Part shown: positions 21,734 to 32,976 of the stretch, one piece after another | How the letters are laid out: the number at the start of each line of letters is the position of its first letter | Numbering within the stretch: the first letter of the stretch is position 1 | Origin: Paenibacillus polygoni | GTDB lineage: Bacteria; Bacillota; Bacilli; Paenibacillales; Paenibacillaceae | Length of the DNA stretch: 64,000 nucleotides | NCBI RefSeq assembly: GCF_030263935.1 | Contig: NZ_CP127162.1 | Span: forward strand, 386,001-450,000 | Direction of reading: 5' to 3' | Position numbers and translations under genes: made by a program | The notes under the pieces: model-generated | What the model was told of the DNA's origin: nothing | Databases searched by the model: none | The model's input: only the letters and a program-made list of their open reading frames with translations

Positions 21734-21958
21734 AATCTTACCTCCTTATTAATACAAGTAAAGACGATAGGCAGGTAACAGAAGTTGCGATACTTTCAAT
21801 TTCTTTTAGGTGATGTACAAAACCTATATACTTCATATCCAATTCAGAACAAAACAAAAAACTGAACGTGCGTGCTGATTTGTCATAACGAGTGGTGTCA
21901 TTATATTAGAGTCTAATTTAGACTCATGAGACCTCATTAAGCTAACGGGCAGGATAGC

Positions 21959-22095
21959 GTGGAATACCTGTTATATTTGACCAATTAAAAGTAGTCCACT
22001 TAATAACACCAGACCACTTTTATAGTATTGCAGGAGAACATGGTCTACTTGAAGAACTTTTGGATATTGCGAAAAAATTCAAGATTAACCGTAAT
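21959..22095 (+). pseudogene. C-terminal gene fragment in the cassette array
   Basis: An open stretch of about 45 codons with protein-like composition (FDQLKVVHLITPDHFYSIAG, then EHGLLEELLDIAKKFK), with an in-frame stop directly upstream and no start or ribosome site. It sits just before hairpin A like the end of a cassette gene. Family not recognised. Confidence 0.35.
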
Positions 22096-22097
22096 AG

Positions 22098-22140
22098 AGG
22101 GAGCAGTGAGCAGTTTGCCAGTTGGCAGCTGCTCCCTTTT
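22098..22140 (+). repeat. Array hairpin A, copy 1
   Basis: GGGAGCAG / CTGCTCCC stem with inner TGCCAGTTGGCA, followed by TTTTA. The same hairpin recurs at 28305 and 29328. Confidence 0.7.
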
Positions 22141-22227
22141 ATTATGCAAACCGGCAGGTTATTTTAAAATGAGAATAGAGTTTTAAAATGCTGAGCAAAA
22201 TAAACGAAAAATCCAAAGGTGATCCGT

Positions 22228-22647
22228 TTGAAAATAAAACAAAGCTTATGCATTTTAGTCTTAATCGGTATAGTGTTAGCAAACTCAACTTTAACTTCAG
22301 CATCAAATGCAGGGATTAGTGAAAGAGAAAAACAGCTCGAGGAAGCTCTATTACAACAGTTGCATTCTTCTATAGTGTCAGCACTCAAGAGTATTTACAA
22401 AACAGAATATATTATGATTGGATGCAAACAAATTTCTTCAATAAATTCACTTGTCACACTTAAAAATAAAGATAAAGAAAGCAAAAGCATAAGTGCAGAT
22501 GCAATGCACGGAGGAAAATACTTTGAACTGACCATTAGCTTATGTGATGTAGGACCAGAAGAGGACTATGTTGAACTGTACTTCAAGAATGATACTGCAG
22601 GGGCTAATTACTATCTGGTACACTATAAAATCACACCTAAAGACTGA
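22228..22647 (+). CDS. Exported DUF3888-type protein
   Basis: A protein of about 139 residues starting at TTG 22228 (AAAGGTG seven bases upstream; GTG at 22219 is too close). It has a signal peptide (KIKQSLCILVLIGIVLANST, cut near LTSAS). The mature part resembles DUF3888 secreted proteins of Bacillus (EEALLQQLHSSIVSALKSIY and a C-terminal VELYFKNDTAGANYYLVHYK). Function unknown. Its stop codon TGA is the first part of the array palindrome (TGAACTAAC), so the gene ends exactly at a cassette boundary. Confidence 0.65.
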   Translation: MKIKQSLCILVLIGIVLANSTLTSASNAGISEREKQLEEALLQQLHSSIVSALKSIYKTEYIMIGCKQISSINSLVTLKNKDKESKSISADAMHGGKYFELTISLCDVGPEEDYVELYFKNDTAGANYYLVHYKITPKD

Positions 22648-22683
22648 ACTAACTAAAGACTGAACTAACGAAAAAACGATAGT
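22646..22683 (+). repeat. Array palindrome S1 (degenerate right arm)
   Basis: GAACTAACG-AAAAAA-CGATAGT (22662-22683), preceded by an extra left half produced by a 16-bp tandem duplication of TAAAGACTGAACTAAC. Confidence 0.7.
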
Positions 22684-22745
22684 GGAGGGGCTTGAACATA
22701 GAAGTTCCTTTTTTCCATGTTAAATCTCATAAGAGGAGTGATTTC

Positions 22746-23207
22746 ATGACCAAATATACTTGTCCATGTTGTGGGTATAAAACTCTTGATGAAGAACCAC
22801 CTGGAACATATGAGACTTGCGATGTTTGTAATTGGCAAGAGGATGCTGTAATGAATGAAAACCCAGATTATTGGGGCGGTGCGAATGCAGTATGTTTGAG
22901 GCAAGCACAAAGAAACTTTATGAAATTTGCGGCTAAGGAAAAGAAATCTTTAGACAACGTAGTTCCAAGAAACGATTACGAACAAGACCCTTCATGGAAA
23001 CCAGTGTGGGAAAATGAAGTAAACCTAGATGAAGCGAAACTTGCGGAAATACAAATCGACGGTAATGTCATAGATAAAAGGTTTCAGGAGTCAATTAATA
23101 TTAATGACTTTTTAGACGCATATACTGAGTTTCTTGAAGCAAAGGGATGGGGCTTTGGTGGTGAAATTAAGCAAAGAAGTACCCAGATTGAAAAACCAAA
23201 ACGTTGA
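22746..23207 (+). CDS. CPCC-type cysteine-rich protein
   Basis: A 153-residue cytoplasmic protein. The N-terminal half is a small zinc-ribbon-like domain: YTCPCCGYKTLDEEPPGTYE then CDVCNWQEDAVMNENPDYWG, the Cys-rich CPCC family. The rest is an acidic helical tail (DFLDAYTEFLEAKGWGFGG). Proteins of this family are frequent as small orphan genes in Bacillus-group genomes. An immunity role is plausible from the neighbourhood but not shown. ATG 22746 has AAGAGGAG upstream. The palindrome S2 follows 31 bp after the stop. Confidence 0.7.
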   Translation: MTKYTCPCCGYKTLDEEPPGTYETCDVCNWQEDAVMNENPDYWGGANAVCLRQAQRNFMKFAAKEKKSLDNVVPRNDYEQDPSWKPVWENEVNLDEAKLAEIQIDGNVIDKRFQESININDFLDAYTEFLEAKGWGFGGEIKQRSTQIEKPKR

Positions 23208-23238
23208 TTTGATAAATGCAATGATAGAACGGAAGTTA

Positions 23239-23266
23239 TTCAACTAACTGTAAAACGTTAGTTGAA
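23239..23266. repeat. Array palindrome S2
   Basis: Perfect 10-bp arms TTCAACTAAC (23239-23248) and GTTAGTTGAA (23257-23266) around an 8-base A-rich loop. Confidence 0.85.
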
Positions 23267-23273
23267 CGACAAT

Positions 23274-23317
23274 AGCGGCAGACTAAGACCTCATTTATCG
23301 AGTCTTGGTCTGCCGCT
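23274..23317 (+). repeat. Array hairpin C, copy 1 (terminator-like)
   Basis: AGCGGCAGACTAAGAC / GTCTTGGTCTGCCGCT (one mismatch in 16), followed by GCTTCTTTTA; directly next to palindrome S2. Likely terminates the previous cassette. Confidence 0.75.
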
Positions 23318-23667
23318 GCTTCTTTTAATGGATCATTCTAAAATTATCATTGACCACTTGTGGTTTTAATTGATTGAAACTAAAATTGTTTTCTACCAAT
23401 TCTAAAACGCTCTATTTCAACAGCAGAGAAAAAATTATCCTCTCCATATAATATATTGCTTCCAATCTCTTATACGCTATGCATATGCAAGAGGAACTAA
23501 AAGGTATATGCAAAAACGCTACCGTGAGAATAATTATACAATGGTCATTATGGCTACGGACAAAGAAACAGATACATCAATGGCAACTGAAAAAATTATG
23601 AGAAAAATAATAATGGGGAAAGACCGAAGCTAAATAAAAGCGATTGGTAATAGGAAGGGATCATATT
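23318..23667 (+). other. Cassette leader before the Imm44-like gene
   Basis: 350 bp with no firm gene. An open stretch 23508-23633 (41 codons from an ATG, MQKRYRENNYTMVIMATDKE ...) has protein-like sequence but only a weak ribosome site; upstream codons stay open, so it is more likely the end of a lost gene. The duplicate of this stretch lies at 25010-25359. Confidence 0.35.
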
Positions 23668-24060
23668 ATGGAATTTTACTTCACTGGAGAAATTATGGAG
23701 GATGTAGAAAAGGCCTATTCTGAGATCGAGAATATTGTTTTAAAAAAATTAAATACATCACTAAACTCACAGGATTACGGTCCTGGCTTAAAAATATTGG
23801 GGATAATTTTTATGATCGCAAGTGATGAGCTTGTTGAAGAGGGTCTTTTTAATGAAAAAATAACTTACTTGAAGAAAGATAAGGACTCTGATATTCGTCT
23901 GAGAATTGATCATGCGACTTTTAGGGAAGTTGATCTTGATTCTCAAATAAGGTTACTAGTCGATAATTTGATTAGAGCTGTTAGAGAAATAAAGAAGAAA
24001 TTTAAAGAGGACTTCGATTCTGAAAGGTTAGCAAAGGATATTGATCGTTTGTTTAACTAA
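23668..24060 (+). CDS. Imm44-like immunity protein, copy 1
   Basis: A 130-residue acidic cytoplasmic protein. FYFTGEIMEDVEKAYSEIEN, a central LKILGIIFMIA core, DIRLRIDHATF, and LVDNLIRAVREIKKKF near the end match the Imm44 family of polymorphic-toxin immunity proteins as I know it. Such proteins bind and neutralise a matching toxin domain delivered by contact or secretion. No toxin gene is nearby, so this would be an orphan immunity gene protecting against toxins of relatives. ATG 23668 with AGGAAGGG upstream. Identical second copy at 25360. Confidence 0.75.
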   Translation: MEFYFTGEIMEDVEKAYSEIENIVLKKLNTSLNSQDYGPGLKILGIIFMIASDELVEEGLFNEKITYLKKDKDSDIRLRIDHATFREVDLDSQIRLLVDNLIRAVREIKKKFKEDFDSERLAKDIDRLFN

Positions 24061-24467
24061 GCTATAATTAATTATGAAATAAAGACAGGTTAAACCACGA
24101 GTGGATTTATTTTATGAATGGATTTTCTTTTATAAATTCTAAAAGCTGCTCTTTCAATCAAAATTTTCACAAATCACTGTAGTCCAACTTAGGTTTAATT
24201 AGAAAAAGTAAGCAACCGATCAACAGACCGGTTGCCTATTCCTGCACCCTAAACGGAGGGCACCGCGAATTACTTTTTCTTTAATTCCTCTCTAGTGTAG
24301 GCATCAGAAATTATCAATTTGCTTATGTGTTCACGCTAGCTTCCTAATCTTCTCTTCTTATTTGATAATTTCATTCACTATAGTTAACTTTCCGTATTAT
24401 AAATGGACTCCCAGCAGAAACTCCTGTACTATTACCTTTTGATTCTAATTGAATGAGGATGATTTTT
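24061..24467. other. Spacer inside the duplicated cassette
   Basis: 407 bp; contains hairpin B (24210-24236) but no coding sequence I can support. The duplicate lies at 25753-26159. Confidence 0.4.
24210..24236 (+). repeat. Array hairpin B, copy 1
   Basis: GCAACCG / CGGTTGC around ATCAACAGAC, preceded by AAAGTAA. Close relatives at 25902, 28228 and 29368. Confidence 0.7.
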
Positions 24468-24638
24468 TTGGCAAGTGCAGCAGTAGTTTTTGCATCAATT
24501 CTTTTACCTATTTTTCTTTATATGTCTTTTTACTTTTTGCTTGATGGGAAACAGCCACAAGCAAGAAGAATATTCATCTCCCTTAGTTTTAGTTTAACAA
24601 TATGGTCGATGGCAATAATTATGATTGCAAAAAATTAG
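24468..24638 (+). CDS. Small membrane protein of the duplicated cassette, copy 1
   Basis: A 56-residue protein with two hydrophobic helices (VVFASILLPIFLYMSFYFLL and IFISLSFSLTIWSMAIIMIA) joined by the basic loop DGKQPQARR. The TTG at 24468 has GAGG nine bases upstream; an ATG at 24453 has no ribosome site, so I use the TTG. The identical protein is encoded at 26160. Function unknown; a membrane partner of the immunity protein or a membrane-acting immunity protein is possible. A palindromic terminator (AAGGTCTATCGACCTT and T-run) follows at once. Confidence 0.6.
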   Translation: MASAAVVFASILLPIFLYMSFYFLLDGKQPQARRIFISLSFSLTIWSMAIIMIAKN

Positions 24639-24660
24639 AAGGTCTATCGACCTTCTTTTT
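24639..24660 (+). terminator. Palindromic terminator of the small membrane gene
   Basis: AAGGTC-TATC-GACCTT followed by CTTTTT. In the second copy this palindrome is the insertion site of the IS1182-type element. Confidence 0.75.
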
Positions 24661-24676
24661 ATATTAGGATCAAAGT

Positions 24677-24855
24677 TTATTTAGATATTTTTAGAGTAGT
24701 TGTGTAATTCCCCAGATGACCAAGATACTCAAAGATTGGCGTGTGACCATATTCTTTAACTACAAATACTTGTCCTGTTATAACATCCTTGTATGTATCT
24801 CTTATCTTGCACTGGCTGGCTTGGATCAAGTTCTAATATCTCATTCCTCCACTAA
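24677..24855 (-). pseudogene. Minus-strand gene remnant in the cassette, copy 1
   Basis: On the minus strand NEILELDPSQPVQDK in one frame continues after a one-base shift as IRDTYKDVITGQVFVVKEYG and then HTPIFEYLGHLGNYTTTLKI, stop at 24677. GGAGG precedes the first part. It looks like a short protein of about 55 residues broken by a frameshift. The same sequence, with the same shift, follows the insertion element at about 27936-28114. Family unknown. Confidence 0.4.
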
Positions 24856-24930
24856 AGGAAAATTCTAGTTATTAACATTAAATAAAAATGCCATTATCCC
24901 TAAAAGTAAAGGGTCTAATCCAAATATTGA

Positions 24931-24958
24931 TTGAACTAACGAAAAAACGTTAGTTGAA
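24931..24958. repeat. Array palindrome S3
   Basis: TTGAACTAACG-AAAAAA-CGTTAGTTGAA; arms match at 10 of 11 positions (G opposite G at position 3). It is the junction between the two cassette copies. Confidence 0.88.
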
Positions 24959-24965
24959 CGACAAT

Positions 24966-25009
24966 AGCGGCAGACTAAGACCTCATTTATCGAGTCTTGG
25001 TCTGCCGCT
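24966..25009 (+). repeat. Array hairpin C, copy 2
   Basis: Same sequence as 23274-23317, in cassette copy 2. Confidence 0.75.
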
Positions 25010-25359
25010 GCTTCTTTTAATGGATCATTCTAAAATTATCATTGACCACTTGTGGTTTTAATTGATTGAAACTAAAATTGTTTTCTACCAATTCTAAAAC
25101 GCTCTATTTCAACAGCAGAGAAAAAATTATCCTCTCCATATAATATATTGCTTCCAATCTCTTATACGCTATGCATATGCAAGAGGAACTAAAAGGTATA
25201 TGCAAAAACGCTACCGTGAGAATAATTATACAATGGTCATTATGGCTACGGACAAAGAAACAGATACATCAATGGCAACTGAAAAAATTATGAGAAAAAT
25301 AATAATGGGGAAAGACCGAAGCTAAATAAAAGCGATTGGTAATAGGAAGGGATCATATT

Positions 25360-25752
25360 ATGGAATTTTACTTCACTGGAGAAATTATGGAGGATGTAGA
25401 AAAGGCCTATTCTGAGATCGAGAATATTGTTTTAAAAAAATTAAATACATCACTAAACTCACAGGATTACGGTCCTGGCTTAAAAATATTGGGGATAATT
25501 TTTATGATCGCAAGTGATGAGCTTGTTGAAGAGGGTCTTTTTAATGAAAAAATAACTTACTTGAAGAAAGATAAGGACTCTGATATTCGTCTGAGAATTG
25601 ATCATGCGACTTTTAGGGAAGTTGATCTTGATTCTCAAATAAGGTTACTAGTCGATAATTTGATTAGAGCTGTTAGAGAAATAAAGAAGAAATTTAAAGA
25701 GGACTTCGATTCTGAAAGGTTAGCAAAGGATATTGATCGTTTGTTTAACTAA
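25360..25752 (+). CDS. Imm44-like immunity protein, copy 2
   Basis: The translated protein is identical to that at 23668-24060, with the same ribosome site and flanks. The duplication therefore doubles the gene dose. No difference has accumulated in this gene, so the duplication is recent or kept uniform by recombination. Confidence 0.75.
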   Translation: MEFYFTGEIMEDVEKAYSEIENIVLKKLNTSLNSQDYGPGLKILGIIFMIASDELVEEGLFNEKITYLKKDKDSDIRLRIDHATFREVDLDSQIRLLVDNLIRAVREIKKKFKEDFDSERLAKDIDRLFN

Positions 25753-25901
25753 GCTATAATTAATTATGAAATAAAGACAGGTTAAACCACGAGTGGATTT
25801 ATTTTATGAATGGATTTTCTTTTATAAATTCTAAAAGCTGCTCTTTCAATCAAAATTTTCACAAATCACTGTAGTCCAACTTAGGTTTAATTAGAAAAAG
25901 T

Positions 25902-25928
25902 AAGCAACCGATCAACAGACCGGTTGCC
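25902..25928 (+). repeat. Array hairpin B, copy 2
   Basis: Same hairpin as 24210-24236 in cassette copy 2. Confidence 0.7.
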
Positions 25929-26159
25929 TATTCCTGCACCCTAAACGGAGGGCACCGCGAATTACTTTTTCTTTAATTCCTCTCTAGTGTAGGCATCAGA
26001 AATTATCAATTTGCTTATGTGTTCACGCTAGCTTCCTAATCTTCTCTTCTTATTTGATAATTTCATTCACTATAGTTAACTTTCCGTATTATAAATGGAC
26101 TCCCAGCAGAAACTCCTGTACTATTACCTTTTGATTCTAATTGAATGAGGATGATTTTT

Positions 26160-26330
26160 TTGGCAAGTGCAGCAGTAGTTTTTGCATCAATTCTTTTACC
26201 TATTTTTCTTTATATGTCTTTTTACTTCTTGCTTGATGGGAAACAGCCACAAGCAAGAAGAATATTCATCTCCCTTAGTTTTAGTTTAACAATATGGTCG
26301 ATGGCAATAATTATGATTGCAAAAAATTAG
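26160..26330 (+). CDS. Small membrane protein of the duplicated cassette, copy 2
   Basis: Protein identical to that at 24468-24638; one silent change (TTT to TTC, base 26228). The insertion element lies in its terminator, directly after the stop codon, so the coding sequence is intact but its 3' end of transcript is now set by the element. Confidence 0.6.
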   Translation: MASAAVVFASILLPIFLYMSFYFLLDGKQPQARRIFISLSFSLTIWSMAIIMIAKN

Positions 26331-26358
26331 AAGGTCTATCGACCTTCTCAGATTGTAG

Positions 26359-26401
26359 ACAAAAGGCATTCGGAATGTATTCATTCTGAGTGCCTTTTGT
26401 C
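26359..26401. terminator. Hairpin at the left end of the IS
   Basis: GACAAAAGGCATTC / ATTCTGAGTGCCTTTTGTC stem; terminates the minus-strand transposase message. Confidence 0.7.
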
Positions 26402-26447
26402 ATTTCTACTTCTTTTCATGAATAAATCAGGTGGAAACCCGCCTGAT

Positions 26448-27806
26448 TTACGCTGGAATTGGTCTGTTCCACGACCATCTGGCGATTTTCTTCAAATTCA
26501 TGGCAGCAAACGTAAGCATCGCCTGCATGGACAATTTTTTTAGCCCTCGCAGGGTTGTCCATCGCATGCCATGCTTTTCTTTTGCATCTGCAAATACCCG
26601 TTCCACCGTTTCTTTTCGTTTTGCATAGATTTGTTTTACATGCTGGTGGTGTCTTAGATGCTCTACTTCTTCTAAGTGGTTTTGCCATACATGTCGCGTC
26701 ACTACTTTTTGGTGGTTCTTGCTCCCTGTACACATGGATAAATAATGACACGATTTACAAATTTCTTTTGGAGATTTGTATTCTCGGTACCCCTCTTTAT
26801 TGGTGGTCGAGTAAGGTAATACCACGTTAGCAGGACATAAATAGGCGTCAAAATATTCATCATACACGTAGTCATCTTTTCGAAAACCTTCTTTTTGAGA
26901 ACGCGGACGTGTATAAGGCAGCGCCGGAGTAACCCCTTGCTCCAACAAATATTTGCTAATCCAAGGTGTTTTGTAGGCAGCATCGGCTGCCACTGCTACA
27001 GGTTTCCCAATCTTTTCTTTTACCATTTCTACGAGGGGTGCAAGCAAGTGGCTGTCATGTTCATTTCCGGGAGTGACGATGTTACCGAGTACAAATCCGT
27101 TTCGGTCTACTGCTGCGTGAAACGAATAAGCAAATTGTTTGGTCCGTTCATCTTTGACATAGTAGCCGCTATCGGGATCTGTAGTGCTTTGTTTAATTTC
27201 CTTTTCTTCTTCTTTTTTAAAAGAGTCCGGAGGAAACGGCTTTTTATCATGGTCGTCCCGATCTTGGTTAATTTCCTCTTCCAGTTTGCGTTGATATGCT
27301 CTTGTTTCTTTGCGTACAACCTTCTTTTCGAATTTCCGTTTATTCGCACTCGCTTTTACGTGTGTAGAATCGATGAAAACATGCTCCGCGCTGAGTAAAT
27401 GTTTCTCAGCTGCAGTCCGCAAAATACGGTAGAAAATCTGTTCGAATAGATCTGTATCTTTAAAACGACGTTCGTAGTTCTTTCCAAAGGTAGAGAAATG
27501 CGGAACTTTATCATAAAATCCATAGCCCAGAAACCAACGATACGCCATGTTGGTTTGAACTTCTTCGATCGTTTTTCGCATGGAACGAATACCAAAGGTA
27601 TATTGAATAAGAGGTAATTTAATTAAGATGACCGGATCGATGCTAGGTCGTCCAATTTCCGAATAATGATCCTGAACCAAGTCGTAGATGAAAGAAAAGT
27701 CGATCGCCGATTCGATTTTGCGAACCAAATGATCTTCTGGAACGAGTTGATCTAGAGCAACCATTTCAAGTTGGTCACGTTGAGTGGAGGATTGTTTCGT
27801 TAGCAA
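26448..27806 (-). CDS. IS1182-family DDE transposase
   Basis: A transposase of about 452 residues, full length. N-terminal DUF772-type domain (DQLVPEDHLVRKIESAIDF; QYTFGIRSMRKTIEEVQTN), then a catalytic core with FIDSTHVKASANK (first Asp), a lysine-rich insertion, VAVAADAAYKTPW (second Asp) and the C-terminal DDE_Tnp part with KETVERVFADAKEKHGMRW (Glu). The four-Cys cluster CPANVV / CKSCHYLSMC is typical of IS1182. TTG at 27806 is preferred: GAGGTG is six bases upstream, whereas the GTG at 27815 lies within that site. No frameshift or stop is seen, so the element may be active. Confidence 0.93.
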   Translation of the reverse strand: MLTKQSSTQRDQLEMVALDQLVPEDHLVRKIESAIDFSFIYDLVQDHYSEIGRPSIDPVILIKLPLIQYTFGIRSMRKTIEEVQTNMAYRWFLGYGFYDKVPHFSTFGKNYERRFKDTDLFEQIFYRILRTAAEKHLLSAEHVFIDSTHVKASANKRKFEKKVVRKETRAYQRKLEEEINQDRDDHDKKPFPPDSFKKEEEKEIKQSTTDPDSGYYVKDERTKQFAYSFHAAVDRNGFVLGNIVTPGNEHDSHLLAPLVEMVKEKIGKPVAVAADAAYKTPWISKYLLEQGVTPALPYTRPRSQKEGFRKDDYVYDEYFDAYLCPANVVLPYSTTNKEGYREYKSPKEICKSCHYLSMCTGSKNHQKVVTRHVWQNHLEEVEHLRHHQHVKQIYAKRKETVERVFADAKEKHGMRWTTLRGLKKLSMQAMLTFAAMNLKKIARWSWNRPIPA

Positions 27807-28189
27807 GATTGTCACCTCAAATAAAATAGTTGCTTCTATTGTAAAATAAAAAAGACTGCAGGCAAACTAGTTTAAGCTAGTTTGTCTACAGTCTGAGAAG
27901 GTCTATCGACCTTCTTTTTATATTAGGATCAAAGTTTATTTAGATATTTTTAGAGTAGTTGTGTAATTCCCCAGATGACCAAGATACTCAAAGATTGGCG
28001 TGTGACCATATTCTTTAACTACAAATACTTGTCCTGTTATAACATCCTTGTATGTATCTCTTATCTTGCACTGGCTGGCTTGGATCAAGTTCTAATATCT
28101 CATTCCTCCACTAAAGGAAAATTCTAGTTATTAACATTAAATAAAAATGCCATTATCCCTAAAAGTAAAGGGTCTAATCCAAATATTGA

Positions 28190-28217
28190 TTGAACTAACG
28201 GAAAAACGATAGTTCAA
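28190..28217. repeat. Array palindrome S4
   Basis: TTGAACTAACG / CGATAGTTCAA, 10 of 11 positions paired; right boundary of cassette copy 2. Confidence 0.8.
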
Positions 28218-28227
28218 GAAGAACAAG

Positions 28228-28254
28228 TAAGCAATCGATCAACAGATTGGTTGC
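28228..28254 (+). repeat. Array hairpin B, copy 3
   Basis: AAGCAATCGATCAACAGATTGGTTGCTT, the same fold as the other B hairpins with changes on both sides of the stem that keep pairing. Followed by GTTCTTT. Confidence 0.7.
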
Positions 28255-28261
28255 TTGTTCT

Positions 28262-28298
28262 TTAAGTTATTGGGCAGGATAATGCAACGTTAGTTGAA
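28262..28298. repeat. Array palindrome S5 (right half intact)
   Basis: CGTTAGTTGAA at 28288-28298. The left half is degraded (TTAAGTTATTGGGCAGGATAA), like the degenerate copy at 21940. Confidence 0.65.
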
Positions 28299-28304
28299 CA
28301 CAGC

Positions 28305-28336
28305 AGGGAGCAGCTTGCAGTTGGCAGTTGCTCCCT
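28305..28336 (+). repeat. Array hairpin A, copy 2
   Basis: GGGAGCAGCTTGCAGTTGGC and AGTTGCTCCC; stem GGGAGCA / TGCTCCC, joined directly to half-site S5. Confidence 0.7.
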
Positions 28337-28431
28337 TAGGGTATGTGTGAACTGCTAAGGAAGGATAGTAAATTATCCTTCGAGAATATATGATGCAATG
28401 AAGTTAATAGAGATTCCCTGGAGGTAATATA

Positions 28432-29298
28432 ATGTTGAACAAAGAAACTGTAGTAAAACAACTTGAACAAGTAGGATTAGGTCAATATGGACATGCCATT
28501 GCAAACTGGGCTTTTCCTACAGCTCAACTTTTTCTTAAACCTGTATCTGACATTATGATTCCTATTGGAGGAAGCAAGGTAGGAGGTAATCCTGATCTTC
28601 CTGATGATATAGAATGGCCATTATGGAAAGATTATGATATGACTTTTATTGCTCAAATTAACTTGGCAGATTGTCCAGTAGATATTTCTCTTCCTAAAAG
28701 TGGGTTGCTGTCTTTTTTCTATGCTGTAAAAGCTATGTATGAGGACGATGACTTTTATAATGATCCTCACACATGTCGAGTAATCTACATCGATTCAGAC
28801 CGCCTCTCGAAAATTTCACGAAGAAATATTCCTAATAATTCAATTGATTCAGAAATAATGAAGCCGAACAAGATTTTATATGAAACGAGTCTATCTGTAC
28901 CAACTGCTGAGTCAGCTTATTTGAAAAGTTTGGGGTTAGACTGGAATGGTAACAGAGATGATTATGATAAGTATTGGAAATCATTTTTACCGCATTGGTC
29001 AAAGGAAGGGTACGTAAACAGACTTATGGGTCATCCTGATCAAATGCAAGGCGATATGCAAGTCGGTTGTGAAATAGCCGTTGGTCCGTACAGCTGGGAT
29101 GATCTGAATAATTCGGATATTCGTGAGAAGGTTGTTAATTCCGCATTAAAATGGCGTTTACTACTACAAATTGATTCCGAAGAAGAAAAAACCGGAATTA
29201 TGTGGGGAGATGTTGGAAGGATTTATTTTTGGGTTCATGAGGATGATCTTACTGATTCATGCTTTGAGAGAGTAGTTTGTGAAATGCAGTGTGGCTAA
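28432..29298 (+). CDS. DUF1963 (YwqG-like) protein
   Basis: A 288-residue cytoplasmic protein. GGSKVGGNPDLPDDIEWPLW and DMTFIAQINLADCP are the family signature; a C-terminal half with YFWVHEDDLTDSCFE completes the fold. DUF1963/YwqG proteins are often found beside LXG and other polymorphic toxin loci, although no biochemical role is firmly assigned. GGAGGT lies seven bases before the ATG. The stop codon TAA is the first part of palindrome S6, so again the gene ends exactly at the cassette boundary. Confidence 0.8.
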   Translation: MLNKETVVKQLEQVGLGQYGHAIANWAFPTAQLFLKPVSDIMIPIGGSKVGGNPDLPDDIEWPLWKDYDMTFIAQINLADCPVDISLPKSGLLSFFYAVKAMYEDDDFYNDPHTCRVIYIDSDRLSKISRRNIPNNSIDSEIMKPNKILYETSLSVPTAESAYLKSLGLDWNGNRDDYDKYWKSFLPHWSKEGYVNRLMGHPDQMQGDMQVGCEIAVGPYSWDDLNNSDIREKVVNSALKWRLLLQIDSEEEKTGIMWGDVGRIYFWVHEDDLTDSCFERVVCEMQCG

Positions 29299-29322
29299 AC
29301 TAACGGAAAAACGATAGCTGAA
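29296..29322. repeat. Array palindrome S6
   Basis: TAAACTAACG-GAAAAA-CGATAGCTGAA, with the DUF1963 stop codon as its first three bases; right arm partly degenerate. Confidence 0.72.
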
Positions 29323-29327
29323 TACAG

Positions 29328-29362
29328 CAGGGAGCAGCTTGCCAGTTGGCAACTGCTCCCTT
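29328..29362 (+). repeat. Array hairpin A, copy 3
   Basis: CAGGGAGCAG / CTGCTCCCTT with inner CTTGCCAGTTGGCAA, which is itself a palindrome. Confidence 0.72.
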
Positions 29363-29367
29363 CAAAG

Positions 29368-29392
29368 TAAGCAACGATCAATGAACTGGTGC
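29368..29392 (+). repeat. Array hairpin B, copy 4 (degenerate)
   Basis: AAGCAACGATCAATGAACTGG then TGCTTTTTCT; weaker pairing than the other B copies but same order of parts. Confidence 0.5.
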
Positions 29393-29754
29393 TTTTTCTC
29401 TTAGCTACTTTTGGCAGATTAATTCAACTTTTTAATCACTAAAAGCGTTATATCTAAGGGACATAGCTATTGTGTAGGAAGAACAAGCGAAAAATTAGTT
29501 TCACAAGTATTATCTGTTTTTGAGAAGAAAATACCGGGATTGGTTAAAGCTAGACAAGATAATAATTAAATCATCAATTCGTATCTTCCCTAATAAAACA
29601 GTATCTATATTGGTGTATAAAGTTGAGGGGAATTCAAACCAAATTTACAGATTCGGTTCTTATCTTAATCGGACGGAAATAGATGTGACTATCTATTAGC
29701 TCAGGGATCTTTCACTATAATAAAAGTGAATTTTGATTGGTAAGGAGGATTTGT
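29393..29754 (+). pseudogene. Gene-poor stretch with a C-terminal gene fragment
   Basis: About 360 bp before the next gene. From about 29429 to 29569 one frame is open and protein-like: FLITKSVISKGHSYCVGRTS then EKLVSQVLSVFEKKIPGLVK, ending RQDNN and a stop, with no start codon or ribosome site. It looks like the end of a lost cassette gene. A degraded spacer (TTGGCAGATTAATTCAACT, about 29410) precedes it, matching the form of S5. Confidence 0.4.
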
Positions 29755-30402
29755 ATGAAAAAGAAGATTTTATTTATTTTTAGTTTAAGTGTTGTTAGTG
29801 CTTTAACTTTAGGTGCCATTTACTCTTCAGCATTAGATCCTTTTACAAATTCAATACGAAAAGTCGAATCTCAACTTGAGTCAAACAAGCAACTACAAGA
29901 TAAAGTATTAGTTGAGATTGGAGATATCAAGGTGACAAATGTAGAGTTGGCAAATTTAAAAGCTAACAAATTAGTTGAAACAAATCCTGTAATAGATGAA
30001 TCTACACTACTTAAAGAAATTGTAGTTGATAAGTTATTCTTAGAATTAGCTGATGATGAAGGAGTTACTGCAACATATGAGGAAGGAAAAAAAGAAGCAG
30101 AAAGAATGCGTGCTCTGTTGGCAAAACAAAGTAAAGAAGTACAGGATACTCAGAAAAATTTCATAGAATTAAGAGGTCTAACAGAAGAAGAGTATTGGAC
30201 TGAATATGCTCCTTCAGAATACCAAGAACAACTAACATTACAGAACCTTGGTCAGTTGTTAATCAAACAAGGGAAAATCGGTGTTGATAAAGATAGTAAT
30301 ACTAATTTAGGACAAGATTTAATTAAATTTAAGGAGCAGCTCCTTACAGATGCATTATCTAAGGGTGATGTAAAAATTGTAGATAATAGTATCAACTTCT
30401 AA
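29755..30402 (+). CDS. Membrane-anchored SurA-N-like protein
   Basis: A 215-residue protein. N-terminal signal or anchor (KKKILFIFSLSVVSALTLGA, no lipobox Cys), then a helical region with the SurA/PrsA N-terminal chaperone pattern: VLVEIGDIKVTNVELANLKA, LLKEIVVDKLFLELADDEG, EGKKEAERMRALL and ELRGLTEEEYWTEYAPSEYQ. No parvulin isomerase domain is present, so it is either a chaperone-only form or a divergent member. AAGGAGG lies six bases before ATG 29755. Unlike the other genes here it is not known to me from immunity arrays. Confidence 0.68.
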   Translation: MKKKILFIFSLSVVSALTLGAIYSSALDPFTNSIRKVESQLESNKQLQDKVLVEIGDIKVTNVELANLKANKLVETNPVIDESTLLKEIVVDKLFLELADDEGVTATYEEGKKEAERMRALLAKQSKEVQDTQKNFIELRGLTEEEYWTEYAPSEYQEQLTLQNLGQLLIKQGKIGVDKDSNTNLGQDLIKFKEQLLTDALSKGDVKIVDNSINF

Positions 30403-30494
30403 TGTCGAAGGGCAAGAACATATATACAACAGAAGTTTCATATTCTGCCGCTTTTTTATTTATTAAAAGGTTGATGGAATCAACCTGAAGACCA

Positions 30495-30522
30495 TTGAAC
30501 TAACGAAAAAACGTTAGTTGAA
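30495..30522. repeat. Array palindrome S7, next to the recombinase
   Basis: TTGAACTAACG-AAAAAA-CGTTAGTTGAA, identical to S3 and lying 66 bp before the recombinase start codon. It is the closest counterpart of an attachment site at the recombinase end. Confidence 0.88.
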
Positions 30523-30588
30523 TCTACAGTTTATAATCCTTCTATTAGTAGCAAACTAGAATTAATCGCTCTAGTAGGAGGTTATATT

Positions 30589-31431
30589 ATGATTTTAAGT
30601 GAACTTTGGCGTCATTATGAAGCAGACAAGCGAATTCAGGGGTTTAGTCCAAATACATTGAAAGCATATGCTTTACAGCTCAGGATGTTGGTTACAGATC
30701 TTGGGGATATAGATATCTCCGAAGTAACTCTTAACCTATTGAAGGGATATCTAGCAAAGCAATCCAATCGATTAAAGCCTAGTAGTCTAGGGCACCGCAT
30801 CCGTTTTGTACGATCCTTATTCCGTTTTGCATATGAGGAAGCCTATTTACCGACAAACCCTTCATTTAAATTACGTGAGCCCAAGATGGAAAAGCGAATT
30901 CCTAAGTTTTTGATGGAGGAAGATGTAATTCATCTAAAGATTTCTTGTCAGACTCATAGAGAAAGAGCTCTACTAGAATTTCTCTACAGCACGGGTTGCC
31001 GGATTGGAGAGGTTGAGAAATTAAATACGGAGGATTTGAACTTGGAGAATTGCTCTGCCATTGTAAATGGGAAGGGTTCAAAGCAAAGAGAAGTTTACTT
31101 CACCACGGAGTGTAAAGTATGGTTGAAGAAGTATTTAGCAAGTCGAGAAGACTCCTGCAAAGCCTTGTTTGTGACGGATACCCATCCTGTTAAGCGAATG
31201 GCCATACCAACGCTAAGGTGGGTATTAAAGAGATTGGCAGATCGAGGAGCCGTGGAGGCTAATGTGTATCCCCATCGATTCCGACATACTTATGCATGCC
31301 AGCTGCTTGATAACGGGGCACCATTAGAATTTATTCAAGGTATGCTGGGTCATGAAAAATCCTCAACTACGCAAATCTATGCTCAGCTTCGTGGAGAGCG
31401 TCGGAGAGAATTGTATCGACGTTTTTTTTAG
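30589..31431 (+). CDS. Tyrosine recombinase (integrase/Xer-like) at the end of the array
   Basis: A 280-residue site-specific recombinase. The N-terminal SAM-like core-binding domain spans about 1-85 (GFSPNTLKAYALQLRMLV). The catalytic domain has the full set: Arg138 in STGCRIGEVEKL, Lys162/165 in GKGSKQREVYF, His229 and Arg232 in PHRFRHTYACQLL, His255 in MLGHEKSSTTQ, and nucleophile Tyr264 in IYAQL. GGAGG lies eight bases before the ATG. It is shorter than IntI integron integrases and I see no IntI-type insert, so it is closer to XerC/D or phage/transposon types. It is transcribed away from the array, and the nearest array palindrome lies directly upstream, the same topology as intI and attI. 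Confidence 0.92.
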   Translation: MILSELWRHYEADKRIQGFSPNTLKAYALQLRMLVTDLGDIDISEVTLNLLKGYLAKQSNRLKPSSLGHRIRFVRSLFRFAYEEAYLPTNPSFKLREPKMEKRIPKFLMEEDVIHLKISCQTHRERALLEFLYSTGCRIGEVEKLNTEDLNLENCSAIVNGKGSKQREVYFTTECKVWLKKYLASREDSCKALFVTDTHPVKRMAIPTLRWVLKRLADRGAVEANVYPHRFRHTYACQLLDNGAPLEFIQGMLGHEKSSTTQIYAQLRGERRRELYRRFF

Positions 31432-31530
31432 AAATAAAGGCAGATTATATGTAAGAGATCCAACCCGAATTATTCCACTTAGAAAAAAATAATACCAAGA
31501 TAAGACTAACCTTTGCAATGAGTCCTTATT

Positions 31531-31564
31531 AAAAAAGAAAGGACTGCTGTAAAGACAGCAGCCC
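31531..31564 (-). terminator. Terminator of bdhA
   Basis: GGACTGCTGT / ACAGCAGCCC; on the minus strand it is followed by TTTCTTTTTT. Confidence 0.8.
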
Positions 31565-31579
31565 TTAATAATACTTATA

Positions 31580-32632
31580 TTATTCCGCTTTTACGAGGAT
31601 TTTAACTTGGCTCTTTTCTTTTAGCAAACCTTCAAAACCTTCCTCAATCACATCATCAAGTTTAATGCGTTTTGTTACCAATTTGTCAGCAGGGAAGTAG
31701 CCTTTTTCCATGAGGCTGATTACCGCTGGGAATACATCACGGTATCCGATAATGCCGGAGATACTGCGTTCTTGCATGACAATTTTATTAGGCTGAATTG
31801 GTGCTTCTTTTTCAAAAATGCTGACGATCATGAGTTCTCCGCCAATTCGAACAGCTTCGAGTGCTTGTTCGAGTACAGGCGGCACACCTGTCACTTCAAA
31901 TACGACATTAGCACCGCCATCTGTTAAGCGGTGGATTTCTTCCACTACATCAGGAGTTTCTTTCGGATTAATAACTTGTGCTCCAAGTTCTATAGCTTTT
32001 GCGCTGCGCTCAGCAGAGAGTTCCACTGCATATATTTCGGACGCACCAGATGCTTTTAGCGCCTCGATTACGAGTAGTCCAATGGGACCCGCACCGAAGA
32101 CAACGGCTTTGTCGCCAACTTTCAGTTTGCTTTGACGAACTGCATAAAGGGCAACAGCAGAAGGTTCCACCAAAGCACCTTGTTCATAGGAAACGGTATC
32201 TGGAATTTTGTGAACGATATGCTCATCCGCAGCAACATATTCAGAGAAACCGCCTCCGCCGCCGGCAAGACCGAGGAAGCCCATTTTGTCACAGAGGTTG
32301 TATTTACCTTGGCGACATGCTGTACATTGACCGCAGTTGAAGATCGGTTCAACAACGACGCGGTCTCCTTTTTGCAGACGGGTTACGCCTTCTCCAACTT
32401 CAACGACTTGTCCAGAGAATTCATGACCCATGACAACAGGCGCTTGCTCTCCCGTAATCGGATGAGGTTTGTCAGCTGGAATAAAGATCGGACCCGCCGT
32501 ATATTCGTGCAAGTCGCTGCCGCAAATCCCGCACCACTCGACTTTGATTTTTACTTTCCCAGGTAGAGCTTTTGGTTCCTCGATTTGTTCCACTCGCAGA
32601 TCTTTCACACCATGCCATCTAAGCGCTTTCAC
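31580..32632 (-). CDS. bdhA: (R,R)-2,3-butanediol dehydrogenase, zinc-dependent
   Basis: A 350-residue medium-chain alcohol dehydrogenase. Catalytic zinc site: Cys and GHE in WCGICGSDLHEY and APVVMGHEFSG. Structural zinc loop NCGQCTACRQGKYNLC. NAD site VVFGAGPIGLLVIEALKASG. GPIFIPADKPHPITGEQAP and GIIGYRDVFPAVISLM are characteristic of B. subtilis BdhA. It interconverts acetoin and 2,3-butanediol, an overflow and redox-balance route. GTG start with AGGAGATG upstream. It is divergent from a LacI-type regulator and has a LacI-type operator at 32775, so control by that regulator is likely. Confidence 0.9.
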   Translation of the reverse strand: MKALRWHGVKDLRVEQIEEPKALPGKVKIKVEWCGICGSDLHEYTAGPIFIPADKPHPITGEQAPVVMGHEFSGQVVEVGEGVTRLQKGDRVVVEPIFNCGQCTACRQGKYNLCDKMGFLGLAGGGGGFSEYVAADEHIVHKIPDTVSYEQGALVEPSAVALYAVRQSKLKVGDKAVVFGAGPIGLLVIEALKASGASEIYAVELSAERSAKAIELGAQVINPKETPDVVEEIHRLTDGGANVVFEVTGVPPVLEQALEAVRIGGELMIVSIFEKEAPIQPNKIVMQERSISGIIGYRDVFPAVISLMEKGYFPADKLVTKRIKLDDVIEEGFEGLLKEKSQVKILVKAE

Positions 32633-32774
32633 AACGAATCATCTCCTAAATAGAAAAGTTAGCTTGCAAGCAAAATCCATAAAGCAGCCTGCTGTTTTTC
32701 AATTATGTTCTTCATGTATTGCTCTACTTCCAAGAAATATCGCTTTGCATGATGTCCTCAAAACAATATTTTTG

Positions 32775-32786
32775 GGAAACGTTTCC
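32775..32786. promoter_or_regulatory. LacI-type operator 1
   Basis: GGAAACGTTTCC, perfect palindrome, 143 bp upstream of bdhA. Confidence 0.65.
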
Positions 32787-32976
32787 GATTCAAATATGTC
32801 ATATAATTTATATAATGTCAATTTCAAAATCCCTTCTCGCGAGATATATAAGTTGATTCCAATCTAAAGCAAGGTAAGAAAATGGCTCTATCTCACGATG
32901 ATTGATCTGGAGGATATCTTGATAAGATAGCAGCTGTGATATAATAAAAATAGAATCCTACTTCATCTAGGAAACA

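Follow-up and report, generated by a model that had tools for sequence, protein, structure and literature searches.

Between positions 21937 and 31456 of the 64,000-nucleotide stretch of the Paenibacillus polygoni genome analysed here (hereafter the window) lies what we consider, with a probability of roughly 0.8, to be an array of gene cassettes on the chromosome whose movement relies on site-specific recombination, the likely actor being a XerA/XerD-like tyrosine recombinase. The best reading of the sequence comparisons is an integron-like but separate Bacillales cassette system, in which the recombinase would itself be a module.

All sites of the array lie on the forward strand. S2 (23239–23266), S3 (24931–24958), S4 (28190–28217) and S7 (30495–30522) matched the palindrome pattern TTGAACTAACG-N6-CGTTAGTTGAA with 0–2 mismatches (none at S3 and S7), whereas 100 dinucleotide shuffles produced no match. 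S1 (22660–22687, CTGAACTAACG/AAAAAACGATAGTGGAG) and S6 (29295–29322) were copies of repeat family D3, with 67–100% identity to its reference copy. The palindromes reported in an earlier note on this DNA, made from the sequence alone, are therefore real, albeit not a stand-alone attachment site as that note supposed: they represent one version of a site in which the following module determines the right half.

A second site class, overlooked at that time, has the left half in common with the palindromes and reads CTAACGGG/CAG... at 21937, 22142 and 28261. The site at the left edge (21937–21964, TTAAGCTAACGGG/CAGGATAGCGTGGAA), previously called a degenerate palindrome at about 21940, instead showed 0 mismatches to the B-type core CTAAMGGGCAGGWTAG; it consists of a constant chromosomal half and the start of the first module, and flank homology to a related genome (G005) stops there. 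The gene-start type (B) site at 22142–22167 (TTATGCAAACCGG/CAGGTTATTTTAA), read from sequence, had 3 mismatches to the B pattern, and that at 28261–28287 (TTTAAGTTATTGGG/CAGGATAATGCAA) forms the left breakpoint of a block in common with contig 26 of G005. Degenerate B-type sites were read by eye at approximately 28348, at 29401–29428 and at 31431–31456, the last of which closes the recombinase module and is recognisable in 48 of 64 relatives. The B-type 16-mer at 3 mismatches occurs at background level in the window's own genome (41 + 51 against 47 + 70 in controls), so genome-wide statements there are based on the palindrome. The exact palindrome was absent from viral contigs, and searches against Rfam gave no hits in four sources.

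The named cassette genes all read rightward, as had been noted. The first (22219–22647, 142 aa), formerly assigned to DUF3888, matched no Pfam family at E ≤ 0.01, while Pfam upheld the CPCC (PF14206, 22746–23207), Imm44-like (23668–24060) and DUF1963/YwqG-like (28432–29298) assignments. The DUF1963/YwqG-like gene has copies in G005 (99% and 95%) and in a second related genome, G018 (93%). The last cassette gene (29755–30402), weakly PrsA/SurA-like with an E value of 0.0079, far below the cut-off, has a 97% copy elsewhere in G018. Three further features had escaped the earlier note. Firstly, S2–S3 and S3–S4 are a single block duplicated at 99–100% identity according to repeat analysis, copy 1 (23251–24941, forward) comprising a hairpin, the Imm44-like gene and a gene for a 61-aa hydrophobic protein of no Pfam family (24453–24638), and copy 2 (24943–28200, forward) carrying a second Imm44-like open reading frame (25360–25752). 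Secondly, copy 2 is interrupted by a later insertion of an IS1182-family element on the reverse strand (~26349–27895, ends placed from repeats; leftward transposase at 26448–27815), of which the genome holds two more copies. Thirdly, hairpins stand between sites: that at 22105–22137 (forward) belongs to repeat families D14/I3 and has similar stretches at loci L002 and L003, and that at 28218–28260 (forward), read from sequence, has similar stretches (82–83%) at L002 and L094.

Comparison between genomes showed that a given cassette can sit at several loci and that a single orthologous locus can carry different cassettes. Most decisively, the window block from S1 to S3 (2,298 bp) was present at another locus in G005 at 99.8% identity, with both ends inside sites; the orthologous flanks of the two genomes are 90–94% identical. 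At the orthologous locus itself, G005 and the window have both edges in common, with homology restarting at S7, and hardly any cassette sequence. The CPCC cassette alone (S1–S2 stretch, 96%) occurs elsewhere in G018, again with both ends in sites. Blocks in common with G005 and G018 were 99.8%, 99.2% and 96% identical, the second having only its left end in a site. S1 was the left breakpoint of blocks common to both genomes, and the right breakpoints fell at S2 (G018) and S3 (G005). Between L094 and L002, a block with both junctions in sites was 99.3% identical compared to 91.4% for the recombinase region, and a cassette of ~414 bp was found in three contexts. Among non-recombinase high-scoring segment pairs (HSPs) that passed filters on length, identity and contig edge, 27/89 left ends, 39/95 right ends and 11/87 pairs of ends lay within 20 bp of sites, against a background of 8.2%, 8.2% and 0.7% (binomial P = 1.5e-9, 3e-18 and 2e-11, values that are overstated because HSPs have cassettes in common). 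HSP ends were located away from recognised sites in 77/254 cases on the left and 125/257 on the right, and for the DUF1963 gene shared with G018 and for the 29755 gene, homology ended outside recognisable sites. Cassettes whose ends fall within sites, seen across several loci and genomes, favour the separate cassette-capture system that the earlier note had proposed.

In the best 80 of 175 related recombinase loci, which served as the comparison set, the recombinase is surrounded by long arrays of one directional site, namely the common left half-site TTnAnCTAACGGG followed by a right half, nATAGTTnAA or ACGnTAGTTnAA. Orientation bias was directly visible, with 241 forward versus 1 reverse B-type cores and 181 versus 3 for A-type (reversed-pattern controls 1/1 and 1/1). 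Window palindromes have a 28-bp 11-6-11 layout, and sites at the other loci are mostly 26–27 bp long. The 28-bp palindrome was rejected as the whole site once relatives revealed the more general one, and A and B were rejected as two distinct recombination sites since the same left sequence precedes both right halves (4 pairs). A link between site orientation and replication sits uneasily with the finding that every strict site in G039, G048 and G056 is on the same strand across megabases.

A right half opens each module, be it a gene, a hairpin (60–100 bp) or the recombinase, and CTAACGGG, where breakpoints concentrate, closes it. When anchored on B-type sites, identity switched at GGGCAG in 7 right-only and 19 left-only pairs, identity at the site being forced by the exact GGCAG required; when anchored on A-type sites with a loosened pattern, 8 gene-end-only pairs diverged after CTAACGGG. 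The module after a common gene end differed in 8 pairs and was the same in 4; in 144 pairs, one hairpin or recombinase leader recurred behind different genes. Among module types, spacings of 140–2000 bp also included 97 A-to-B and 140 A-to-A cases, some of which are recombinase modules or reflect sites that the pattern did not catch. Within sites, arms covaried with z = 5.0 for A-left × A-right (n = 904, fuzzy matches) and z = 1.8 for B-left × B-right (n = 374); across the hairpin, no positive covariation was seen (A-left × B-right z = −1.5, A-right × B-left z = −2.7, n = 161; 146 of 170 A–B pairs entered the alignment). An attC-like fold-back, initially favoured from the A-hairpin-B appearance, was abandoned on the latter result and on the separability of hairpins from genes. 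RNAalifold called 0 pairs on the mixed site alignment, an uninformative outcome because hairpin classes differ.

The tyrosine recombinase (30589–31431, forward, 280 aa), recognised from profile searches, conserved residues and structure match, is complete and stands beside the array as first described, with 66 bp from the end of S7, the left edge of its module, to its ATG. Its description as terminal gives way to that of one more module within the same kind of sites: a flanking site was present upstream in 57/66, downstream in 48/64 and on both sides in 42/62 readable loci (reversed-sequence controls 11 and 12). A leader hairpin (30530–30588, forward) is predicted to pair the recombinase Shine-Dalgarno sequence, a prediction obtained for 50 of 51 leaders folded (the window and 50 from the best 80 of 175 loci). 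Residues R138, K162, H229, R232, H255 and Y264, whose catalytic roles we take from the family, were invariant among 32 sequences. The enzyme is related to XerC, XerD and XerA and is no equivalog of them, scores staying below the cut-offs (XerD 192.9/329.6, XerC 190.9/335.15, XerA 186.7/220 bits). The IntI model TIGR02249 gave 86 bits against a curated cut-off of 265 in hmmscan; in the genome search its below-cut-off match fell into two pieces, 10–181 and 241–301, leaving model positions 182–240 without a match, a pattern close to that of the Xer proteins of this genome. This gap suggests that the IntI-specific catalytic-domain insertion is absent, IntI membership being judged here by the HMM. 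The best structural matches were XerA entries 5hxy and 4a8e, with IntI4 among the close folds (Foldseek).

Arrays and recombinase do not always occur together. Relatives lacking an intact recombinase of this clade still carry strand-biased sites; among 12 such hand-picked genomes, fragments were found only in G034 and G003, the remaining recombinases being 25–34% identical. No visible tracking of site number by recombinase presence, which the earlier note had proposed to look for, was observed among 99 relatives compared by eye, and this counts against simple coupling. That note had also considered a palindrome scattered without the recombinase: sites do occur without it, but they form arrays instead of being dispersed. 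Paenibacillus sp. J45TS6 retains the identical recombinase at the corresponding locus and no array, with breakpoints outside any site, and relatives at ~50% identity in G365 and G490 had no sites above control. The persistence of arrays without an intact recombinase is compatible with the cassettes being moved by host XerC/XerD or another recombinase, the array enzyme being a passenger on the same sites; the genome indeed holds two other Xer-like proteins (29–33% identity), and the 11-6-11 layout of the window sites is that of dif, as described in an excerpt of PMC6449649. We nevertheless find this improbable, as arrays that have lost their recombinase would also be left behind as relics, and as the recombinase is bounded by these sites in most readable loci and its 51–54% identical relatives on two plasmids (Peribacillus and Sporosarcina) adjoin the same kind of site (seen without a control), as for a cognate pair.

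Less credible still is a self-mobile recombinase whose MITE-like hairpin derivatives landed between genes that stay put. Hairpin and recombinase modules do begin with the same right half-site class, and the 144 pairs with one hairpin or leader after different genes fit such an origin, but gene modules move without hairpins (the 414-bp cassette and the lone CPCC cassette), gene content is nearly all different between conserved edges at one locus, and 169 of 186 cassette open reading frames have one orientation. Plain repeats, in which modules would be swapped when repeated sites and hairpins recombine homologously, deserve equally little credence: unequal crossing-over could give the S2–S3 duplication, but breakpoints fall inside imperfect 26–28 bp sites with unrelated flanks, site orientation is strict and the junction constant, and homologous recombination normally needs longer stretches. 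A true integron overlooked by existing tools is the least plausible of all, since the resemblance of A-hairpin-B to attC (R''-L''-loop-L'-R'), the IntI4 fold and Cass2 in 2/150 cargo proteins are set against the low, Xer-like split IntI score, the lack of positive A/B arm covariation, the exchange of modules after shared gene ends (8 pairs against 4), a recombinase that is itself a module reading with the array, and an exchange point unlike that of integrons.

Returning to site-specific movement by the array's own enzyme, the architecture suggests the following scheme. Two adjacent modules would together make one near-palindromic site of 26–28 bp, both arms of which would be bound by recombinase protomers, the XerA/XerD-like enzyme being the presumed catalyst. 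Two such sites would synapse and exchange strands at a point that adjoins GGG and in this window falls within the A-rich spacer, so that modules could be excised, probably as circular intermediates, inserted or duplicated. The leader hairpin may have a regulatory role, masking the recombinase ribosome-binding site such that read-through from the array would be poorly translated, and the other hairpins may act as insulators or recombination aids.

The immunity genes emphasised in the earlier note turned out not to typify the cargo, which consists of diverse enzymes, as diverse as integron cargo. Across the best 80 of 175 loci, 186 cassette proteins fell into 166 BLASTP families, 149 of them singletons, with GNAT, NUDIX, glyoxalase and hydrolase proteins among the examples; in B-to-A units, 169 of 186 longest open reading frames (≥80 aa) were forward. 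An immunity or defence focus was discarded after PADLOC matched only 10 families, with 1–3 members each, among 150 scanned proteins (of 164 representatives, a set excluding proteins >420 aa). Cass2, the family named after integron cassettes, accounted for the aforementioned two. At module starts, TATAAT was not enriched (30/372 versus 38 in shuffles), while extended −10 (103 versus 48) and RBS-start motifs (61 versus 10) exceeded shuffles, which only suggests that cassettes may have their own promoters.

Textbooks present integrons as the means by which bacteria store and rearrange single genes, and the junction of an integron cassette is the R' box of folded attC. The present array is similar in being a one-orientation series of small single-gene cassettes with diverse cargo and a tyrosine recombinase, and in having clusters without a recombinase, like CALINs. 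It differs in that its recombinase resembles XerA/XerD, scores far below the IntI cut-off and is placed within the array and co-oriented, its junction lies next to CTAACGGG in a 26–28 bp site, and its hairpins are separate from genes. According to an excerpt of the IntegronFinder 2.0 article (PMC9024848), Bacillota integrons comprise one complete case (Limnochorda) and a few CALINs, and the phylum had thus seemed nearly devoid of them. The literature searched for such a system contained no description of one; if active, it would give these Gram-positive bacteria an integron version of their own with a large, mostly singleton cargo. The sites and recombinase would serve as markers for finding arrays, and possibly as a tool for ordered gene insertion.

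Compared to the dif/pdif modules of Acinetobacter plasmids, which in the excerpt of PMC6449649 are gene modules in different contexts between 28-bp 11-6-11 sites, with XerC/XerD sites in inverted orientation on either side, and which depend on host XerCD, nearly all sites here point one way (241 versus 1 in the best 80 of 175 loci), and the array lies on the chromosome with a recombinase of its own among its modules. Single-protein Xer systems (XerA/XerH) similarly have one recombinase on a near-palindromic site. They are known for resolving chromosome dimers at a single dif, whereas here cassette arrays are found. The present system raises the issue of whether a plain Xer-type enzyme working on duplex sites could maintain a cassette library with no need for the folded single-stranded sites that integrons require. 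Taken against IntI/attC integrons and XerCD/dif modules alike, the array is probably a third, independent cassette system with a dedicated Xer-type recombinase that is itself a module; if so, well over 100 single-gene cassette families, together with hairpins, would be traded among Paenibacillus species via one directional near-palindromic site.

Matches to the palindrome (11-bp arms around a 6-bp A-rich centre, at most three mismatches) lay in the window at 23239, 24931, 28190 and 30495, with none in 100 dinucleotide shuffles, and repeat analysis added looser copies at 22660 and 29295; the palindromic sites S1 to S4, S6 and S7 of the earlier note are real. Genes between them read rightward, and the cassette families CPCC, Imm44 (two copies) and DUF1963 named in that note were confirmed, as was its recombinase, a 280-aa tyrosine recombinase starting 66 bp past the last palindrome (S7). 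The S2-S3 block is present twice at 99–100% identity, its second copy being split by an IS1182-family element (26349–27895) inserted at a 20-bp palindrome (AGAAGGTCTATCGACCTTCT) found on both its sides. The genome has two more near-identical copies of this element, near positions 471860 and 593555.

Across the single 4.94-Mb contig of P. polygoni (window at 386001–450000), the palindrome gave 12 forward and 11 reverse matches (at most three mismatches, one site often matching both strands), and the reversed-pattern control none. They fell into three clusters, at 409–416 kb (the window), 1.017–1.021 Mb and 2.146–2.166 Mb, and the window gene was the sole copy of its recombinase clade. Thus, of the genome-wide scatter without recombinase considered in the earlier note, the scatter was not found, the sites being clustered, while absence of such a recombinase held at two of the clusters.

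A scan of genome contigs returned 175 recombinase relatives, of which the best 80 loci were used; 72 of these were titled Paenibacillus and the others ‘Bacillus’ sp., Brevibacillus and one Bacilli MAG, some genomes carrying several recombinase copies. The exact window palindrome was rare in related loci. Sites there comprised two classes according to their right half, and in the best 80 loci both were strongly oriented: the B-type core CTAAMGGGCAGGWTAG had 241 forward matches against one in reverse (at most two mismatches; 1 and 1 with the pattern reversed), and the A-type core had 181 against 3 (at most one mismatch; likewise 1 and 1 with the pattern reversed). A site lay upstream of the recombinase in 57/66 readable loci (11 in the reversed-sequence control), downstream in 48/64 (control 12) and on both sides in 42/62. 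Read at 43 loci, the recombinase flanks showed an upstream half-site followed by a leader that is conserved and, 3′ of the gene and often behind a hairpin, another half-site (CTAAAGGGCAG). On reading, the post-stop sequence of two relatives at 90% identity (L005 and L006) was unlike the usual hairpin and site, resembling the start of another coding region.

Sites were next read by the modules (gene cassette, hairpin or recombinase gene) lying between them. From a B-type start, as found at gene modules, the site 140–2000 bp on was A-type 216 times and B-type 57 times; from an A-type start with spacing below 140 bp (hairpin modules), B followed 141 times and A 24 times, longer spacings being 97 A-to-B and 140 A-to-A. 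Identity between B-site pairs alike on the right only (n = 7) began at the GGCAG anchor, and in pairs alike on the left only (n = 19) it was lost past that anchor. Among A-site pairs, eight alike in the gene end only lost identity past CTAACGGG, 144 shared only the downstream part (hairpin or recombinase leader) and four agreed on both sides. The deciding comparison came from four pairs, e.g. L009:19158 and L068:1229, in which one left sequence ending CTAACGGG (or a near variant) was followed by an A-type or a B-type right half. Because one left sequence precedes both right halves, we read the left half-site as common to all modules, with A or B set by which kind of module comes next. Separately, some gene modules of the 80 loci shared a promoter-like stretch at their start, CCAATATGTGGTAT (19 of 372 module starts versus 2 in shuffles), and the longer hairpin of the AGCGGCAGACTAAGACC...GGTCTGCCGCT class (window 23274–23317) recurred in L004, L015, L030 and L057, sitting behind different genes in other species with similar sequence past the hairpin.

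In 186 of the 214 B-to-A units the longest ORF reached 80 aa or more (169 forward, 17 reverse; median 166 aa), and these 186 proteins formed 166 BLASTP families, 149 of them singletons. Pfam, run on 150 of 164 representative proteins, recognised 128 families, including GNAT acetyltransferases (seven in the commonest), NUDIX (four), glyoxalase (four), hydrolases, APH phosphotransferases (two) and Cass2 ‘integron-associated effector binding protein’ (two). PADLOC matches among the cargo were few. The immunity-like character seen in the window is not typical of the 80 loci.

The recombinase scored 192.9 bits against XerD, 190.9 against XerC, 186.7 against XerA and 86.1 against IntI, reaching none of the respective cut-offs (329.6, 335.15, 220 and 265); the IntI match came in two pieces, with positions 182–240 missing. 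Arg138, Lys162, His229, Arg232, His255 and Tyr264, invariant in 32 homologues, form the predicted catalytic set by analogy with the known family. Nearest folds to the structure model (mean pLDDT 85.4, pTM 0.66) were archaeal XerA, then IntI4, lambda integrase and XerD, at TM-scores of 0.45–0.58 and rmsd 7–14, values reflecting uncertain domain placement. In single-sequence folds of the leader 5′ of the start codon, a predicted hairpin paired the ribosome-binding site in 50/51 cases; the aligned consensus kept five pairs, at the stem base only.

Comparison of loci pointed to exchange of modules at sites. At the orthologous locus of G005, a relative, the left flank was 92.5% identical and the match broke off within the first site, at 21957; homology restarted at S7 (93.6% over 30495–31464, 90% over 30495–32958); between these edges, the 8.5 kb of the window and 3.8 kb of G005 had only pieces below 100 bp in common, including the end of a 61-aa protein gene and hairpins. 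Window 22661–24958 reappeared in G005 contig 18 (99.8%) and 22661–23263 in contig 33 of another relative, G018 (96%), both ends lying inside sites in each case; 28262–29362, in G005 contig 26 (99.2%), ended inside a site on the left and past a shared hairpin on the right. L094:15573–17686 matched L002:45–2161 at 99.3%, with both junctions in sites and neighbouring recombinase regions at 91.4%. A gene cassette of ~ 414 bp occurred in L009, L057 and L079 (L009 and L079 come from one genome). The sequence immediately to its left differed each time, and its right neighbour was one of two different hairpins or a recombinase leader. At unequal distances beyond the left neighbour, L009 and L057 had a 938-bp stretch in common (85.5%), while nothing was shared by the 3-kb right flanks of these two at E ≤ 1e-3.

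Not all boundaries fitted this pattern. The DUF1963 gene also occurred in G018 contig 21 (93%) and G005 contig 31 (95%), and the gene at 29755 in G018 contig 59 (97%); the G018 homologies of both ended near the gene, not at a recognisable site. Among non-recombinase homologous segments of the 80 loci, L094 and the window, ends lay within 20 bp of a site more often than expected, in 27/89 (left), 39/95 (right) and 11/87 (both) cases versus a background of 8.2%, 8.2% and 0.7%; the P values are overstated, the segments being mutually dependent. The majority of ends were not within 20 bp of sites, and many segments had ends outside recognised sites. In Paenibacillus sp. J45TS6 the recombinase is identical and the chromosomal flanks are shared, with 2.5 kb of other DNA replacing the array; its breakpoints lie outside any site, which counts against a site-specific reading. 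Catalysis of cassette movement by this recombinase, with circles as the intermediate, is a prediction from sequence.

The recombinase was present in 14/99 relatives at E ≤ 1e-60, several copies being partial or with stop codons, and, with the limit at E ≤ 1e-55, in 8/398 genomes sampled from the phylum. Plasmid relatives from Peribacillus (54% identity) and Sporosarcina (51%) adjoin putative sites of the same design, the Sporosarcina recombinase being inverted relative to the sites; in the sequence read around two chromosomal relatives (G365 and G490, ~ 50%), sites were no more frequent than in the reversed control. The Sporosarcina locus (L093) was an array-like stretch of minus-strand sites with merA/merR, NUDIX and GNAT genes, the recombinase on the opposite strand. 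Strand-biased arrays without an intact recombinase, counted per strand at no more than one mismatch, occurred in G053 (46/5), G003 (27/6), G008 (23/8), G039 (0/17), G056 (0/14) and G048 (11/0), with reversed-pattern controls of 0–3 per strand. B-type sites of G039, G048 and G056 (at most one mismatch) were all on one strand, across megabases. In 12 picked genomes searched at E ≤ 1e-15, recombinase fragments were found in G034 and G003, and elsewhere only recombinases at 25–34% identity. Recombinase presence and site number, which the earlier note proposed to compare, were in no visible agreement among relatives, which counts against a simple coupling of the two.

Searches of an open-access collection, which covers neither subscription papers nor preprints, yielded no account of such arrays, so absence is not proven. 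Background came from papers on integron distribution (PMC9024848), tyrosine recombinase classes (PMC8138268) and dif modules (PMC6449649). The recombinase is a candidate for the acting enzyme; the recombinase-less arrays described here resemble the CALINs of integrons, i.e. cassette clusters without a recombinase.
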